A stretch of 34,045 nt of DNA from Gammaproteobacteria bacterium (GTDB lineage Bacteria > Pseudomonadota > Gammaproteobacteria > GCA-2400775). The stretch is taken from contig NVRF01000004.1 in assembly GCA_002400775.1 (NCBI GenBank), positions 19,675 through 53,719 of the forward strand, written 5' to 3'. Of the stretch, positions 13,491 through 21,054 are shown piece after piece (positions within the stretch are counted from its first letter, which is position 1; the number at the start of each line of letters is the position of its first letter). The notes under the pieces were generated by a model. The model worked only from the letters and a program-made list of their open reading frames with translations, was not told where the DNA came from and did not search any database. Made by a program: the position numbers and the translations under genes.

Positions 13491-13880
13491 ATGGATAAAA
13501 ATATGAAAATCTTGATTGTGGATGATTTTTCCACAATGCGTCGAATAATCAAGAACCTATTACGTGATTTGGGATTTAACAATACTACTGAGGCAGATGA
13601 CGGTCAGACCGGGTTGCCAATTTTACAGGCAGGTGGCATCGATTTTTTGGTTACTGACTGGAATATGCCCGGTATGCAAGGAATAGACCTGTTAAAAGCA
13701 GTGCGAGCCGACCCCAAATTGGCAAGTACGCCGGTGTTGATGGTTACCGCTGAGCAAAAACGCGAACAGATCATTGAAGCTGCCCAGGCAGGTGTGAATG
13801 GCTATATTGTCAAGCCATTTACTGCAGCGACTTTGAAGGAAAAGATCGACAAGATTTTTGAACGTATCGAAGCCGCTTAA
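13491..13880 (+). CDS. cheY: Chemotaxis response regulator CheY
   Basis: CheY is the diffusible receiver that binds FliM/FliN when phosphorylated by CheA. It has the acidic pocket [12 protein letters not shown], the phosphoacceptor Asp at residue 56 ([11 protein letters not shown]), the Thr in [11 protein letters not shown] and the Lys of VKPFTA. Length 129 and lack of an output domain fit CheY. A strong GGAGG lies 7 bases before the ATG. It starts the chemotaxis block 44 bp after fliA; I saw no convincing promoter in that gap. Confidence 0.97.
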
Positions 13881-13905: not shown

Positions 13906-14661
13906 ATGCAAAATCATGCTATAGAAGAAGATATACGTTTGTTAAAGGCACGTGAACTTGTTCACTTTCTTGAGCAGTCTGATGAAGAATCAGCGATCAG
14001 GATTATTGACGACATAACTAATGTGCGTAATACCGATTTATTTAATTCAATTGGGCGCTTGACTCGTGACCTTCATAGTGCCTTGTCTGGTGTTGGTGAT
14101 GGTGATGGTTCAAATGCTTCACAACTGACAGAATTCGACATTCCTGACGCCAAGGAACGACTTAATTATGTCGTTACCATGACACAGCAAGCGGCAGATA
14201 AGACACTTACTGCAATTGAAGAAATGTTGCCACGTTGTGACCAGTTACACGATCGTTCGGTTCGCTTGACCTCAATATGGAATCGCTATGCTTCGGGTGA
14301 TATGCCTGAAGATGAATTTCATTCTATGTCGGATGTTATTAGAACGTTCCTGAATAAGTCTGAGATTGACTCTGGTGAGATGCGCGTGCAGTTAAAAGAA
14401 GTGCTGATAGCGCAAGAGTATCAAGATATCACCAGTCAGGTGATCGGTCGTGTTATTCGGCTGGTAGATGATGTTGAAAATAGTTTAATGAAGGTTTTAC
14501 GCTTGTCTGGTATGAGTGGCGAAGAAAGTGCTGATAAGTCAGCATCCGGAAAGCGCACTGAAGATAATTTAGAAGGGCCACAAATACCTGGGCATAAGTC
14601 TTCGACGGCAGTGTCCGGTCAAGATGAAGTTGACGATTTGTTATCTAGCCTTGGTTTTTAG
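13906..14661 (+). CDS. cheZ: CheY-phosphate phosphatase CheZ
   Basis: CheZ ends the signal by dephosphorylating CheY. The long helical hairpin contains AQEYQDITSQVIGRVIRL, where Asp174 and Gln178 align with the catalytic Asp143/Gln147 of E. coli CheZ. The C-terminus DEVDDLLSSLGF is the conserved CheY-docking helix. The frame is open to 13858 inside cheY, but ATG 13906 has the ribosome site AGGGGAG at correct spacing, giving 251 residues. CheZ is typical of beta/gammaproteobacteria with this cluster layout. Confidence 0.96.
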   Translation: MQNHAIEEDIRLLKARELVHFLEQSDEESAIRIIDDITNVRNTDLFNSIGRLTRDLHSALSGVGDGDGSNASQLTEFDIPDAKERLNYVVTMTQQAADKTLTAIEEMLPRCDQLHDRSVRLTSIWNRYASGDMPEDEFHSMSDVIRTFLNKSEIDSGEMRVQLKEVLIAQEYQDITSQVIGRVIRLVDDVENSLMKVLRLSGMSGEESADKSASGKRTEDNLEGPQIPGHKSSTAVSGQDEVDDLLSSLGF

Positions 14662-14674
14662 GGGTGATTGAATA

Positions 14675-16666
14675 ATGTCTTACGATTTAAATGATGAAAT
14701 CTTACAAGATTTCCTGGTCGAAGCAGACGAGTTAATGGAACTGCTTGCTGAGCAGTTGGTTGATCTTGAAAGAACACCCGAAGACTCCGAGCTATTGGCA
14801 GCAATCTTTCGTGCCTTTCATACGGTAAAAGGTGGAGCCGGGTTTTTAGCTATAGCGCCATTAGTTGATGTCTGTCATCGCGCCGAAGATGTTTTTAATG
14901 TTTTGCGCCAAGGTGATCGAATCGCTGATACGCATCTTATGGATGTCATTCTTCAGGTGATGGATTCGGTCAATGCGATGTTTGATACCGTGCGCACGGG
15001 TGAAGAACCTGAGCCTACCGATCCTTCCATACTAAGGGCGCTGGAAATGCTGGCTAAACCAGCCACTGCTGAGCCAGTAGCTGTTGTTCCAGCGTCGGTA
15101 AAAGCACAGGCAGTGGAGCCGGTTACCGAGCTTGCTGCTACTGAAAGTGACGATATTACTGATGCTGAATTTGAGGCGATGCTTGATCAATTACATGGTC
15201 AAGGTGAATCTGACACGGTTTCAAGTGATGACGTTACTGCATCAATGGCAAGCAACAGCGATATAATCTCCGAAGATGAATTTGAAAGTATGCTCGATGA
15301 CCTTTATGGTCAAGGGCCCATCGGCGTCGGTGGTGCAGCTTCAGTTGCAGCAGATAAAGCTACGATAACACCTGAGAAAATGGAGCAAACAGCAGTGCCG
15401 GTAGAACAAAAATCAGTTGTTCCGGTCATAGCAGAAGCGCCTGTTCAAAGCGAAACCAAAGCGAAACCAAAGCCAAAGCCGCCGACACCTAAAACCGACA
15501 GTGTGGTGCGTGTTAATACCGAGCGCCTTGACGAAATCATGAACATGGTGGGTGAGTTGGTCTTGGTAAGAAACCGCTTGCAGACTTTGCATCTTGAAAT
15601 AGAACACGAACGTATGGCCAAGGCGGTCAGTGACCTTGATTTGGTTACTTCTGATCTACAGGCAGCCGTAATGAAAACCCGTATGCAACCGATAAAAAAG
15701 GTATTCGGTCGCTTTCCTCGCGTTGTGCGTGACCTGGCTCGGAGTTTAAATAAGGATATTGAATTAGAGTTAGTGGGTGAAGATACTGATATGGATAAAA
15801 ACATGGTTGAAGCGCTGGCTGATCCCTTGGTCCATTTAGTACGAAATTCCGTCGACCATGGTGTGGAAATTCCTTCTGTGCGTGAAGCAGCTGGTAAACC
15901 ACGTCAAGGTAAGGTATTGCTTTCTGCTGCACAACAGGGGGATCATATTTTATTAACTATCGAAGATGATGGTGCGGGTATGGATGCTGACGTATTACGC
16001 AATATAGCTGTTAAGAAGGGCTTGATGGATCAGGAGTCGGCCGCGCGTCTTGATGATCGCTCCTGTTATAACTTGATTTTTATGGCTGGTTTCTCGACAA
16101 AAGAAACAATTTCTGATGTGTCAGGTCGTGGCGTCGGCATGGATGTTGTGAATACTCGTATTACCCAGTTGGGTGGATCAATAACAATTGATTCAGAGCT
16201 GGGTAGAGGCACCATCATGCGGCTTAAATTGCCATTGACATTGGCAATTTTACCCACCCTTATGATTGTGTTGAAGGATCAAACCTTTGCACTGCCGCTG
16301 ACTGCCGTGGTTGAGATTTTTCATGTGGATGTTGAAAAAATCAGTGTGGTAGACGGCAATCCGGTTATTGTCATTCGTAATCAATCTTTACCATTGCTTT
16401 ATATTGGTAAATGGCTCGTAAATAATTATGACGAAGATGAGTCCAACTTAAAAATGGCGCATGTGGTTGTTGTTAATGTTGGTTCACAACAACTCGGTTT
16501 TGTCGTAGATCAACTGGTCGGACAAGAAGAAGTTGTGATTAAGCCACTGGGTGCTTTTTTACGCGGCACAAAAGGCTTGTCAGGAGCAACGATTACCGGT
16601 AACGGTCAAATTGCACTCATTCTAGATGTGCCAGGTTTGGTCACGCAATACCAAAACGTCGCTTAG
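14675..16666 (+). CDS. cheA: Chemotaxis histidine kinase CheA
   Basis: CheA autophosphorylates and passes phosphate to CheY. The HPt domain has the phosphorylated His49 (FRAFHTVKGGAGFL). The dimerisation helix starts near residue 278 (RVNTERLDEIMNMVGELVLV), the ATPase domain shows NSVDHGVE (391-398), DDGAGMD (431-437) and DVSGRGVGMD (481-490), and the C-terminal CheW-like domain is complete. I do not see a canonical CheY-binding P2 domain in residues 130-275. Instead there is a linker with two copies of a motif, ITDAEFEAMLDQLHGQG (161-177) and ISEDEFESMLDDLYGQG (198-214), then a KPKPKPP stretch. Similar short motifs occur in Pseudomonas-type CheA. Length 663. Confidence 0.97.
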   Translation: MSYDLNDEILQDFLVEADELMELLAEQLVDLERTPEDSELLAAIFRAFHTVKGGAGFLAIAPLVDVCHRAEDVFNVLRQGDRIADTHLMDVILQVMDSVNAMFDTVRTGEEPEPTDPSILRALEMLAKPATAEPVAVVPASVKAQAVEPVTELAATESDDITDAEFEAMLDQLHGQGESDTVSSDDVTASMASNSDIISEDEFESMLDDLYGQGPIGVGGAASVAADKATITPEKMEQTAVPVEQKSVVPVIAEAPVQSETKAKPKPKPPTPKTDSVVRVNTERLDEIMNMVGELVLVRNRLQTLHLEIEHERMAKAVSDLDLVTSDLQAAVMKTRMQPIKKVFGRFPRVVRDLARSLNKDIELELVGEDTDMDKNMVEALADPLVHLVRNSVDHGVEIPSVREAAGKPRQGKVLLSAAQQGDHILLTIEDDGAGMDADVLRNIAVKKGLMDQESAARLDDRSCYNLIFMAGFSTKETISDVSGRGVGMDVVNTRITQLGGSITIDSELGRGTIMRLKLPLTLAILPTLMIVLKDQTFALPLTAVVEIFHVDVEKISVVDGNPVIVIRNQSLPLLYIGKWLVNNYDEDESNLKMAHVVVVNVGSQQLGFVVDQLVGQEEVVIKPLGAFLRGTKGLSGATITGNGQIALILDVPGLVTQYQNVA

Positions 16667-16669
16667 AGA

Positions 16670-17104
16670 AGCTTGCTATTAAAGTTCGGGTGCTGGAGGT
16701 TGATCACTTGGCATTCTATCTTGTTGTGTATTCGAATTGTTAAGTATCAATTCGTCAATACCATTGATTCGGAATATTTTTCGTAAATTTACTCCTGGAT
16801 TTTTATAGTGTTTACATAAACTTATTAAAGTTAGGGAAAAGGAAATAATTAAAGGTGAAACCCTCATGTCATGTGTTGTTTATTTGGCGCCTGGTTATTA
16901 TCAGGCAAGGGTTATTGATTCGGTCGCGACGATGAAACTTTTTATAAGCCTTGTGAAAGTTGACGAAATTTGTAAACCATGTATTGACACTATCTATGAC
17001 GCCCTGGCGAAAATTGGGTCAGATACGGTCATGGCAGCCTGGGTTGCAAAGAGTATGGTTCATTGGATGAAGCGGGTTCAGTCTCGGCAGATTCGAGATC
17101 GCGC
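16670..17104 (+). pseudogene. cheB: Decayed cheB (chemotaxis methylesterase) relic
   Basis: The cheA-motC gap is where cheB normally lies. One frame reads AIKVRVLEVDHLAFY from 16675, matching the start of CheB (AxKVLVVDDSxFF) with the phosphoacceptor pair DD changed to DH, no start codon, and a TAA at 16741. The frame 16866-17040 gives VVYLAPGYYQARV, then ICKPCIDTIYDALAKIGSDT, which match the VxLAPGGxQxxV and YKPCVDVTFxSAAKxYG blocks of CheB. A frameshift leads to GSLGCKEYGSLDEAGSVSAD, matching GADGxxGxxxLKxxGSxVxAQDE. About 600 bp of middle sequence is missing, including the catalytic Ser and His region, and the Asp of the TGMGxDG motif is replaced. The gene cannot be functional. Family comparisons are from memory. 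Confidence 0.8.
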
Positions 17105-17845
17105 ATGGACTTTCTAAGTTTATTGGGGATTATTATTGCATTGGCCGCTATTTTAGGCGGCAATATTCTTGAGGGTGGCCATACCGCTTCACTGGTCCAA
17201 GTTACCGCCTTCGTGATTGTTATGGGCGGTACTGTGGGCGCCATCATGCTGCAGGTGCCTGTGCGTGTTTTCGCTCGCTCATTACGTATCGTGCGCTGGG
17301 TGTTTATGCCACCGCTTGTTAACTTTGAAGAATACATAGGAAAAATTGTTAACTGGAGCAACGTTGCGCGGCGCGAAGGTCTGCTAGGGCTTGAAGTAAT
17401 TGTTGAAGATGAGAAAGAAGATTTTGCGCGCAAGGGGTTACAACTGTTGGTAGATGGTAGTGAGCCAGAATCTATACGTGCCATTTTGGATGTCGACATC
17501 ATGGTTAAAGAAGATTTTGATTTGCAAGCCTCTAAAGTTTATGAAGGCATGGGTGGTTATGCACCCACTGTAGGTATTCTCGGTGCCGTAATGGGCTTGA
17601 TTCATGTTATGAACAATCTCGCTGATCCATCAAAGCTTGGTCCCGGTATCGCCGTAGCCTTTGTTGCAACAATTTATGGCGTCGGTTTTGCAAACCTTTT
17701 GTTTCTACCTGTTGCCGCCAAATTAAAGGCGAATATACATCAGCAAAGCCGTCTTAGAGAAATGATTCTGGAAGGTATTGTTGCAATCGCCGAGGGCGAA
17801 AATCCTCGAAACATCGAAACCAAGCTACAAGGTTATTTGATATAG
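17105..17845 (+). CDS. motC: Flagellar stator protein MotC (MotA/PomA family)
   Basis: MotC is the proton-channel A subunit of a second stator known from Pseudomonas. The sequence has four membrane segments, with the family blocks GGYAPTVGILGAVMGLIHVM and GIAVAFVATIYGVGFANLLF in the second half. The frame is open to 17063, but those first 14 codons are cheB relic. ATG 17105 (MDFLSLLGIIIALAAIL) gives 246 residues, the usual MotC length. There is no good ribosome site, perhaps because translation once depended on coupling to cheB. MotD follows after six bases. Confidence 0.93.
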   Translation: MDFLSLLGIIIALAAILGGNILEGGHTASLVQVTAFVIVMGGTVGAIMLQVPVRVFARSLRIVRWVFMPPLVNFEEYIGKIVNWSNVARREGLLGLEVIVEDEKEDFARKGLQLLVDGSEPESIRAILDVDIMVKEDFDLQASKVYEGMGGYAPTVGILGAVMGLIHVMNNLADPSKLGPGIAVAFVATIYGVGFANLLFLPVAAKLKANIHQQSRLREMILEGIVAIAEGENPRNIETKLQGYLI

Positions 17846-17851
17846 ATAACA

Positions 17852-18664
17852 ATGAGATCACAACGACGTCATAGACATGAAGAACCTGAAAACCATGAGC
17901 GCTGGTTGGTTTCCTATGCTGATTTTATTACTTTGTTATTCGCATTTTTTGTTGTGCTGTATTCCATATCATCGGTTAATGAGGGAAAATATCGCGTGTT
18001 GTCTGATGCGCTCGAAGCAGCTTTTCGTGCTCCTGCCAGCAGTTTAAACCCGGTAAACGTGGGTAAAGGTGGTCAACCTACTGCATTTGATCCCGAAAAT
18101 TCATTAATGATTGAATTGCCGCGTGTACCCTTAGCCCACTTGGCGCCAAAACAAGAGCAAGTTGATGTCGATAAAATTGCCGGGGATATTGAAGACGCAT
18201 TGGAAAGCTTGATCGATCAAGAGCTTGTCAGCGTTAATAAAGACGGCTTATCAGTAGAAATTGAACTGAAATCACGCATATTGTATTCAAGTGGTAGCGC
18301 CGAGCTCGCGCGTAGTGCAGAACCAATACTGCTACAAATCGCAGATATCATTCGTGGCTTTGATTACCCCGTAAGGGTCGAGGGCTATACCGACAATGTG
18401 TCAATTAATACGAAACAGTTTCCGTCTAACTGGGAATTATCTGCCGCACGGGCATCAAGCGTAGTGCGGCTTATTGCCGGTGCAGGGATCGACCCGCTGC
18501 AGCTGACTGCGTCGGGTTTTGGAGAGTTTAGGCCGATTGCGAACAATGATACCGAGCAGGGGCGTGCAGATAATCGTCGTGTTGTCTTAGTCATCGATGC
18601 TGGGGAAACGCTAAGGCCAGGGGCTGCAGTAGCTGAAGATCTCGTGTTTTCCGGCGGGCTATGA
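17852..18664 (+). CDS. motD: Flagellar stator protein MotD (MotB family)
   Basis: MotD is the B subunit that anchors the stator to peptidoglycan. The basic N-terminus (MRSQRRHRHEEPENHERWLV) precedes a single membrane helix with the proton-carrying Asp24 in SYADFITLLFAFFVVLYSIS. The C-terminal OmpA-like domain spans about residues 145-250 (VEGYTDNVSINTKQFPSNWE, then LSAARASSVVRLI and DNRRVVLVI). Length 270. It pairs with motC immediately upstream. Residues around the ion path look MotB-like, pointing to proton rather than sodium drive, but this is inference. Confidence 0.94.
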   Translation: MRSQRRHRHEEPENHERWLVSYADFITLLFAFFVVLYSISSVNEGKYRVLSDALEAAFRAPASSLNPVNVGKGGQPTAFDPENSLMIELPRVPLAHLAPKQEQVDVDKIAGDIEDALESLIDQELVSVNKDGLSVEIELKSRILYSSGSAELARSAEPILLQIADIIRGFDYPVRVEGYTDNVSINTKQFPSNWELSAARASSVVRLIAGAGIDPLQLTASGFGEFRPIANNDTEQGRADNRRVVLVIDAGETLRPGAAVAEDLVFSGGL

Positions 18665-18698: not shown

Positions 18699-19487
18699 AT
18701 GAAAGTATGGGCAGTATCAAACCAAAAGGGAGGTGTTGGCAAGACGACAACAGTTGCCACCTTAGCCGGGTTACTTGCATCAAGGGGTAAGCGAGTGCTT
18801 ATGCTTGATCTTGATCCGCATGGCTCGCTGACAAGCTATTTTGGTGGGGATCCAGATGCAACGAGCACCAGCATATACAACTTATTTCAGCAAGGGCCTG
18901 AATGTGCCGATACATTGGTACAGGAAACCGGAGTTGATGGCCTGCATTTGATACCAGCGGCTACGGCTATGGCAACGTTAGATCGCCAAATGGGTGCGAG
19001 CGGTGGCAAAGGCCTTATCGTTAGCCGGGGGTTGGCGCGGTTACATGAAAAATACGATCATGTGTTGCTCGATTGCCCGCCGATGTTAGGAGTGTTAATG
19101 GTCAATGCACTTGCTGCATGTGAGCATTTGCTTATTCCTGTACAGACTGAATTCCTTGCATTAAAAGGATTGGAACGTATGTTGAACACCTTGAAAATGG
19201 TGATGAAGGCTAAACAAATGAAGTTGGAATATACAATATTGCCAACGATGTTTGACCGTCGTACGCGCGCATCAATTCACAGCCTGCGCGTTTTGCGTGA
19301 AAACCATGTAGAAACCATCTCTGGGCACGTGATTCCTGTTGACACACAATTTCGTGACGCTAGCATGGCTGGCAAACCACTATCATTGATAAATCCACGC
19401 GCTCGTGGTGCTGTTGCTTACGGCCAAATATTGGACGAACTATTAACTTGCGACCATCCCTCACAACAAAGGGTGATGCAGTCATGA
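18699..19487 (+). CDS. ParA/Soj-family ATPase for polar chemotaxis-array positioning (ParC type)
   Basis: The protein is a ParA-type ATPase with deviant Walker A NQKGGVGKTTT (residues 8-18), LMLDLDPHGSLTSYFGG and VLLDCPPMLGVLMVNALAAC. In Vibrio the orthologue in this exact position is called ParC and carries chemotaxis arrays to the pole together with ParP. A GTG three bases upstream also fits the frame, but the ATG at 18699 has AAGGA at good spacing, giving 262 residues. The stop overlaps the next ATG (ATGA), linking it tightly to the ParP gene. Confidence 0.9.
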   Translation: MKVWAVSNQKGGVGKTTTVATLAGLLASRGKRVLMLDLDPHGSLTSYFGGDPDATSTSIYNLFQQGPECADTLVQETGVDGLHLIPAATAMATLDRQMGASGGKGLIVSRGLARLHEKYDHVLLDCPPMLGVLMVNALAACEHLLIPVQTEFLALKGLERMLNTLKMVMKAKQMKLEYTILPTMFDRRTRASIHSLRVLRENHVETISGHVIPVDTQFRDASMAGKPLSLINPRARGAVAYGQILDELLTCDHPSQQRVMQS

Positions 19488-20452
19488 GTCACACTAATAA
19501 TGTGCAGCAGCCAAGCCAGTTAGCAGATAAAGATACGGCGTTAAGCGATTATTTTGATATGTTGCTGCATGAAACCACTATAGCTGAGAAACCAGCACTG
19601 GTTAGTGAGTGCGAAGAATCGCATGATGAGCCAGAGCTAATAATTGCGGGCATAAAAAAAACTAAAATTGTAATAGAAAAAGAAGGCTCTGCGCTCGACA
19701 TTACAGCTTCATCTGAAGATTTCCATTGTGGATCATTGGTTGCTGTTACACCGTCTAACAACATACAAAATGTTACGGACCTGGCACCAATAACAGAATT
19801 AGAGTCTGAGCCATTGGTCGATGCCCTATCGGATACTGATGAAGCTGGAGCAGTAGAGCCTATTTCTGTATTGCAGGTAGCTGATGCCGATCTTGAGTCA
19901 AGCTCTAATAGTTGTTCTGGCGACGAGGCATCAGAGCCTGAAGAAGAAAATTATTATGTTGAAGGTGCTCCAGAGTGGGCACATGGTCCGTTCCAGGGTC
20001 TTGAATTCACCATTGCAAAATTGAAGCTAGTGATTCCGTTGATACATCTATGTGGAATTCTCGATTGGGAAAACGCCGAGCTGACTCCTATGCCTGGTCA
20101 TAGTAAGCTGTTTATCGGTATTTGGCCTAATCATGGTACAAGCTCAAAAATTGTGGATGTGGCTGAAATGCTAGTGCCAAAACGTTATCACAACAAGATT
20201 GAGGCATGGCAAAGCCGCACCACAAAAATAGTGCTTATCGACGATTCGGTTTGGGGGCTGGCATGTGACGAGGTTTTGGGTGTTGTGACCCTGGATCCGC
20301 GTGAGGTTCGTTGGCGCAGCAATCTTACACAACGTGCCTGGTTAGCAGGTACATTGGTTGGTCATATGTCGGCATTAATCGATGGTGATGAACTTGCGGC
20401 AAGGTTATTGCACGGTGACAAGAACGAGGAATTTATTGCATCTTGTGCATAG
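19484..20452 (+). CDS. parP: CheW-domain array-positioning protein ParP
   Basis: The 322-residue protein has an acidic, low-complexity N-terminal part (about 1-160) and a C-terminal CheW-like domain beginning around FQGLEFTIAKLKLVIPLIHL and ending with the LTQRAWLAGTLVGHMSALID region. ParP in Vibrio binds CheA and chemoreceptors through this domain and the ParA partner through the N-terminus. The frame is open upstream to 19448, but ATG 19484 overlaps the ParA stop and has GGGTGA upstream. A plausible sigma-54 promoter for cheW begins at its stop codon. Confidence 0.88.
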   Translation: MSHTNNVQQPSQLADKDTALSDYFDMLLHETTIAEKPALVSECEESHDEPELIIAGIKKTKIVIEKEGSALDITASSEDFHCGSLVAVTPSNNIQNVTDLAPITELESEPLVDALSDTDEAGAVEPISVLQVADADLESSSNSCSGDEASEPEEENYYVEGAPEWAHGPFQGLEFTIAKLKLVIPLIHLCGILDWENAELTPMPGHSKLFIGIWPNHGTSSKIVDVAEMLVPKRYHNKIEAWQSRTTKIVLIDDSVWGLACDEVLGVVTLDPREVRWRSNLTQRAWLAGTLVGHMSALIDGDELAARLLHGDKNEEFIASCA

Positions 20453-20467: not shown

Positions 20468-20550
20468 TTATAGACTGTTAAGCAAATAATATGTCGATTT
20501 TTTGACTTAAATAATATCGATGGCACGGTAGTGCAATAAGGGGTTTGATT

Positions 20551-21054
20551 ATGGCTAAGGTGGCGTACGACGAATACCAGGATCCTATTAACCAGGATAT
20601 TCAGGATCCACTATTGCAATGGGTGACATTCCGCCTGGACGAAGAAAAATACGGCATTAACGTTATGGCTGTGCAGGAAGTGCTTAAAGTCACCGAGATA
20701 ACGCAAGTGCCGGGAGCTCCTGATTTTGCGCTGGGTATTATTAATCTACGCGGTAGTGTGGTGACAGTTATTGATGCCAGGACACGTTTTGGTTTGGCAT
20801 ATCGCAAAGAGGATGATAATTCCCGTATTATTATTATGGAAGCCGGCGATCAGGAAGTAGGTATTCTTGTTGATAGTGTGGCAGAAGTTGTTTACATGCG
20901 AAGCTCCGAAATTGAGCCTGCACCTTCAGTGGGTAGCGATGAAGGATCACAGTTTATTCAAGGCGTAAATAGCTCAGGATCAGAATTATTAATTTTGGTG
21001 GAGCTTGATAAGTTATTGTCCGAGCATGAATGGGAGGAAATTGCCGCTTTTTAA
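20551..21054 (+). CDS. cheW: Chemotaxis coupling protein CheW
   Basis: CheW links CheA to chemoreceptors. A short N-terminal extension of about 20 residues precedes the CheW domain, with LQWVTFRLDEEKYGINVMAV, ITQVPGAPDFALGIINLRGS and VVTVIDARTRFGL, followed by the second beta-barrel. The ATG at 20551 has AAGGGG upstream; an in-frame TTG six bases earlier is less likely. Length 167. The 98-bp gap from parP carries a sigma-54-like promoter, unlike the tight spacing elsewhere in the block. Confidence 0.95.
   Translation: MAKVAYDEYQDPINQDIQDPLLQWVTFRLDEEKYGINVMAVQEVLKVTEITQVPGAPDFALGIINLRGSVVTVIDARTRFGLAYRKEDDNSRIIIMEAGDQEVGILVDSVAEVVYMRSSEIEPAPSVGSDEGSQFIQGVNSSGSELLILVELDKLLSEHEWEEIAAF

Follow-up and report, generated by a model that had tools for sequence, protein, structure and literature searches.

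The 438 bp that separate cheA from motC in the flagellar-class (F6) chemotaxis operon analysed here (positions 16667–17104 of the window, forward strand) are, with high probability, a unitary pseudogene of F6 cheB, judging from the sequence. Because the gap appears to hold a wrecked cheB, the gene is intact at the same spot in close relatives, and it has apparently been lost more than once, the flagellar F6 chemotaxis system of this organism probably operates with no dedicated CheB, the enzyme that resets bacterial chemotaxis receptors.

The F6 Operon

The window is the whole stretch of DNA that was analysed (34,045 nucleotides, G000:C6:19675-53719). It belongs to a draft genome (G000) of 1.50 Mb in 52 contigs, 52% complete, some contigs of which contain ambiguous bases. 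Four genomes of the same genus were used for comparison: G001, G002, G003 (80% complete) and G004 (95% complete).

The operon reads, all on the forward strand, cheY (13491–13880), cheZ (13906–14661), cheA (14675–16666), the gap, motC (17105–17845), motD (17852–18664), a gene for a parA-type ATPase (18699–19487), a gene for a ParP-like protein (19448–20452, putative start) and cheW (20545–21054, putative start); the gap runs from the cheA stop at 16666 to the motC ATG at 17105. This order, with motC, motD, parA, parP and cheW beside an intact kinase gene, is that of an F6-class system. The preliminary description had called all the neighbours of the gap intact, and open reading frames, domains and identities within the genus bear this out. 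CheY is 95–98% identical to its orthologues in G001, G002 and G004 (pN/pS 0.02–0.06), CheZ is 81–82% identical to those of relatives, and CheA (663 aa) has Hpt, H-kinase_dim, HATPase_c and CheW domains above cut-off (pN/pS 0.18–0.21 against relatives). MotC is 93–94% identical within the genus (pN/pS 0.05–0.08) and was found at this identity in three other genomes, the G003 assembly being without motC. The corresponding identities are 76–78% for MotD, 82–84% for the ParA-type ATPase and 85–88% for CheW, and CheW domains are present in CheW and, above cut-off, in the ParP-like protein. Across CheA, CheY and MotC, pN/pS was 0.02–0.21, including between the two cheB-less genomes (G000 and G004), indicating purifying selection. 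Since the rest of the operon is still under selection, the F6 flagellar kinase pathway is probably still in use.

Homology of the Gap to cheB

In G002 and G001, an intact F6 cheB of 351 and 358 codons, respectively, lies between cheA and motC. DNA alignment of the gap to the ≈1.1-kb target in G001 gave three collinear blocks, at 16684–16743 (E = 3e-6), 16783–17014 (E = 4e-16) and 17059–17130 (E = 4e-10), the last of which extends into motC. In terms of the former gene, the first block (16684–16745, aligned to cheB of G001 and G002) corresponds to cheB codons ≈2–23, with the start codon lost and a 1-nt frameshift. The second block (16783–17014) corresponds to codons ≈209–286 in G001 numbering, with one in-frame TAG and the VYLAPG and KPCID motifs, and the third (17042–17104; E = 4e-10 with G001 and 3e-9 with G002) to the 3′ end, with LDEAGSVSAD. 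Four CheB pieces had been named in the preliminary description (AIKVRVLEVDHL, VYLAPG, KPCIDTIYDALAK and LDEAGSVSAD), and all four align to CheB in that order. The best local score of the gap was 57 against G001, where 200 dinucleotide shuffles gave 14.7 ± 1.9 (maximum 22), and 52 against G002, where they gave 14.3 ± 1.7 (maximum 19). A derivation of the gap from the cheB of the F7 cluster in the same genome (see below) was rejected, the local score of 15 being at chance level.

The Pfam profile CheB_methylest (PF01339) matched the gap at 16761–17030 (E = 5e-5), over profile positions 29–112 only and with one in-frame TAG; the score of 22.8 bits is just below the curated cut-off of 24 bits, which a functional CheB would be expected to reach. 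A phmmer search of the PDB with the remnant as a single sequence, a method too weak here, gave no CheB match. The case for a pseudogene therefore rests on the orthologous alignment. Because G001 and G002 have intact orthologues in this position, and the collinear homology to them is far above that of shuffled sequence while none is seen to the F7 cheB, the earlier identification of the gap as a relic of cheB, with disabling lesions, is upheld.

Lesions and Relaxed Constraint

The ATG of cheB aligns with an ATT just upstream of the first block, and a 1-nt deletion follows. About 40 bp stand in place of ≈560 bp of cheB (G001 numbering), and a second deletion, of ≈130–175 bp, lies near the 3′ end, where, as had been noted earlier, the frame of the LDEAGSVSAD block differs from that of the second block. 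Only codons 1–23 of the receiver domain are left, frameshifted and without a start codon, and the phosphorylated aspartate (D55 in G001) is absent. The regions of the catalytic serine and aspartate (S180 and D303 of the triad S180, H207 and D303 in G001) are deleted. The preliminary description had the start codon, the middle of the gene and both the serine and the histidine gone; this holds for the first three, but by alignment the histidine codon may persist as AAT (Asn). With the start codon, two stretches of the interior and the reading frame gone, the F6 cheB cannot make a methylesterase.

Within the second block, pN was 0.30–0.31 between the remnant and the intact copies, compared to 0.136 between the intact copies over approximately the same region; synonymous sites were saturated. 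Half-sums gave a dN of ≈0.315 for the remnant branch. A value of ≈0.10 would be expected from the CheA branch (0.0825) scaled by the cheB/cheA ratio of the intact copies (≈1.2), so that the remnant has evolved about three-fold faster than a constrained cheB should, which indicates relaxed constraint. Together with the constraint on CheA, CheY and MotC, this excess indicates that cheB is decaying in an operon whose kinase pathway is maintained. Scanning the gap for promoters, terminators and Rfam families gave nothing above chance, and no inverted repeats were found in it, so that no mobile-element scar was seen.

A Separate F7 Cluster and the Receptors

A search of the genome for cheB, cheR, cheD and cheV returned an F7 cheR-cheD-cheB set on contig C35 and a CheV gene on contig C16. 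The C35 genes are in the order cheY-cheA-cheW-receptor-cheR-cheD-cheB, and the CheB is intact (362 aa). A STAS gene lies upstream, and a 418-aa MCP, a STAS protein and a SpoIIE-type phosphatase with a receiver domain are encoded divergently. This content (STAS, cheY, cheA, cheW, aer2-like receptor, cheR, cheD, cheB, mcpA-like receptor, STAS, serine phosphatase) matches the ancestral (stage 1/2) F7 clusters of Ortega et al. 2020 (PMC7184735). The layout falls between their stages 1 and 2, since it combines the 5′ STAS gene kept at stage 1 with the three genes moved to the front at stage 2; there is one cheW. The F7 set cheA-cheW-mcp-cheR-cheD-cheB is kept in all five genomes of the genus, as is the CheV on C16.

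The sequence EWEDF or EWDEF at the end of the F7 receptor is a CheR/CheB tether, and the methylation motifs of this receptor are canonical. (The F7 receptor at L191:10139-13012 has an N-terminal globin, PAS domains, HAMP, a 36H-type signalling domain and a WEDF tail; it is Aer2-like with an added globin.) The other receptors have no tether, and their signalling hairpin is ≈28 residues longer than that of the F7 receptor. We infer that the F7 receptor is of the 36H class and the longer ones of the 40H class, the latter presumably serving F6. The tether-less 40H receptors keep glutamate and glutamine pairs in their methylation helices and may still be modified. In two receptors, L201 (G000:C28) and L203 (G004:C32), MSAT is replaced by MSDT or MSET beside the first methylation helix, a parallel acidic substitution of both cheB-less species that the orthologues in G001 and G003 do not have. 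G001:C39, G002:C33 and G003:C12 carry a Wsp-like chemosensory cluster, which was not found in G000 (52% complete) or G004.

A cheV-cheR pair belonging to F6, the CheV being different from that on C16, lies between flgA and flgB in G001, G002 and G003. In G004, both genes are gone, and ≈500 bp with no similarity to them lie between flgA and flgB (L225, G004:C116:7711-8463). The G000 assembly does not include the flg locus at all (FlgE was not found either), and the absence of F6 cheR and cheV from it was not counted. Of the F6 system's own CheR–CheB pair, then, CheB is lost in G000, where the CheR locus is outside the assembly, and both are lost in G004. The earlier statement that only the methylesterase had been lost is thus unproven: the cheV-cheR locus falls outside an assembly that is 52% complete, and the sister genome G004 has lost F6 cheR and cheV as well.

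Possible Consequences for Adaptation

We propose that the F6 array no longer has a methylation-reset arm of its own, just as in G004, which is without F6 cheR and cheV besides. F6 signalling would then proceed with little or no methylation-based adaptation, aided by the CheV retained on C16, while the intact CheR-CheD-CheB set on C35 would most likely serve the separate F7 array. We put adaptation-free F6 signalling, which is predicted from gene content, at slightly short of an even chance. Against it, the missing parts of a genome that is 52% complete could contain F6 cheR, cheV or a displaced cheB of the F6 type, and the tether-less receptors keep the Glu/Gln pairs of their methylation helices. 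E. coli cells without CheR regain some gradient drift in the laboratory without short-term adaptation (PMC12270135), which makes an adaptation-free flagellar pathway conceivable. A role of CheV-type proteins in adaptation, raised in the preliminary description, is possible given the CheV on C16.

The preliminary description also offered adaptation by another CheB. Such a CheB does exist, on C35, as part of the distinct F7 cluster, whose receptor has its own tether; the presumed F6 receptors have none. For it to replace the lost enzyme, the F7 CheB, with the F7 CheR and CheD, would have to have taken over demethylation of the F6 receptors through cross-talk between the arrays, making F6 cheB redundant. 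This, the main alternative, is possible, though we consider it rather unlikely. In its favour, CheB, CheD and CheR are intact on C35 and in all four relatives, and the 40H receptors retain their methylation-site residues. However, the tether for CheR and CheB is confined to the F7 receptor, and in Pseudomonas aeruginosa it is bound by CheB2 of the matching pathway alone, with apparent insulation between the pathways (PMC7698151). Furthermore, G001 and G002 have the same F7 set and yet keep F6 cheB and cheR.

One Loss or Two

The F6 cheB of G004 is reduced to a 148-bp remnant. Its deletions share no breakpoint with those of G000, and either genome has preserved stretches that are missing from the other. 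In a tree of F6 operon genes, G000 and G004 group together (support 93/91), as would be expected if both had inherited a single ancestral loss. The rooted F7 gene tree, on the other hand, places G004 with G001 and G002 (100/100) and rejects the G000–G004 grouping (p-AU 4e-89), although divergence of the F7 genes between the groups is unusually high and they may have undergone exchange. A further five (housekeeping) genes also place G004 with G001 and G002 (89/90) and nearly reject the G000–G004 grouping (p-AU 0.06). (A tree of SdhA and PepA was unresolved, and the longer gene sets were used instead.) With the breakpoints and both of these gene sets against it, a single ancestral loss is unlikely. 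Two independent losses are more likely, if not proven. As a tentative reading, held with less than even confidence, the genus has on at least two occasions stripped its flagellar F6 array of the module for methylation-based adaptation (CheB, CheR and one CheV), whereas the ancestral-type F7 system has kept its own.

Other Readings of the Gap

The remnant might instead have been kept as a short leader gene. A frame of 83 codons built of the remnant is open at 16866–17117 (forward strand); it has an AAGGTG-like site upstream that could serve as its own ribosome-binding site, and it ends inside motC, overlapping the motC start by 13 nt, so that it could couple motC translation to the operon. G004 likewise has a frame, of 41 codons, that begins at the former cheB start and extends nearly as far as motC. 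Some openness is expected of former coding sequence, however, and the 83-aa product has no Pfam match, its amino acids are not conserved (the pN of the remnant is about twice that of intact cheB), and the frame has no independent copies. We consider this reading improbable. A mis-joined gap, from an assembly or binning error in a genome with an intact cheB, might be suspected in so fragmented a draft, but it has a negligible probability given several separate lesions and scattered substitutions in all three blocks, which are unlike a mis-join, intact flanking genes, and decay of the same gene with other breakpoints in the sister genome.

F6 Loci in Other Genomes

We surveyed 65 other F6 loci that contain both cheA and motC. 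A full-length cheB is present in 57 (one of which, L012, JAADIY010000004.1, is the same sequence as G002), a receiver-less one in five, and none in three. The receiver-less proteins (195–257 aa; L020, L034, L035, L036 and L046) are encoded between cheA and motC, and that of L034 has the Ser, His and Asp motifs. With no receiver, a CheB of this type would lie outside the usual control through CheA phosphorylation.

The cheB-less loci come from metagenome-assembled genomes (MAGs) of Methylophaga (L003), Methylococcaceae (L007) and Methylothermaceae (L022). The Methylophaga genome (G037) keeps F6 cheR and has two F7-type cheB genes. F6-type cheR was also missing from the Methylococcaceae genome (G038), where an F7-type pair is present, and in the Methylothermaceae genome (G039), F6 cheA is followed directly by motC, and no CheR and no CheB methylesterase domain were found; as all three genomes are MAGs, the absences are provisional. 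G039 is a candidate for methylation-free F6 chemotaxis. Mobile-element-like inverted repeats were observed in two cheA–motC regions: at L007:5230-5395, where they replace cheB (49-nt arms), and at L085:237-415 (G001), just upstream of the intact cheB (25-nt arms).

Comparison with Known Systems

The operon has the same order as the F6 flagellar operon of Pseudomonas and Methylophaga (cheY-cheZ-cheA-cheB-motC-motD-parA-parP-cheW), with all other members present and the remnant in the slot of cheB. It differs from them in that cheB is a pseudogene and, in G004, in that the F6 cheR and cheV next to flgB are gone as well.

Almost all chemotaxis systems are held to have CheB and CheR, the usual exception being gastric Helicobacter, with its methylation-independent chemotaxis (PMC12270135). 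The likeness to the latter lies in a flagellar kinase without its own CheB and in the presence of CheV. Unlike Helicobacter of this kind, whose genomes encode neither CheR nor CheB, the present organism has an F7 CheR-CheD-CheB set, on C35. If F6 signalling is adaptation-free here all the same, there would be living species that run adaptation-free flagellar chemotaxis.

Partial F6 systems in which CheA is kept while CheB and CheR are lost are already known from genomes at stages 3–4 of Ortega et al. (PMC7184735), and the retention of F6 CheA and loss of F6 CheB (in G004 also CheR) beside a complete F7 set resemble these. In those genomes, however, the F7 system is of the later type and is presumed to drive the motor, whereas here it has ancestral stage 1/2 features (SpoIIE-type phosphatase, STAS, mcpA-like receptor, globin-PAS receptor and cheD), and F6 motC, motD, parA, parP and cheW are intact. 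In the same survey, all organisms with a stage 1 or 2 F7 system also had an F6 system, which was complete at stage 2 (PMC7184735). The genus thus apparently breaks the published rule of a complete F6 system beside an ancestral-type F7 system. Decay of F6 cheB, joined in one species by the loss of cheR and cheV, is seen here beside an F7 system that has kept its old type, and related losses and receiver-less CheBs occur in other gammaproteobacterial genomes. The occurrence of intact and broken cheB within one genus makes a before-and-after comparison possible. If the F6 array has indeed shed its methylation module at least twice here, the genus would represent a natural intermediate, absent from the published survey, on the way to the F7 takeover of flagellar control in the ancestors of E. 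coli.
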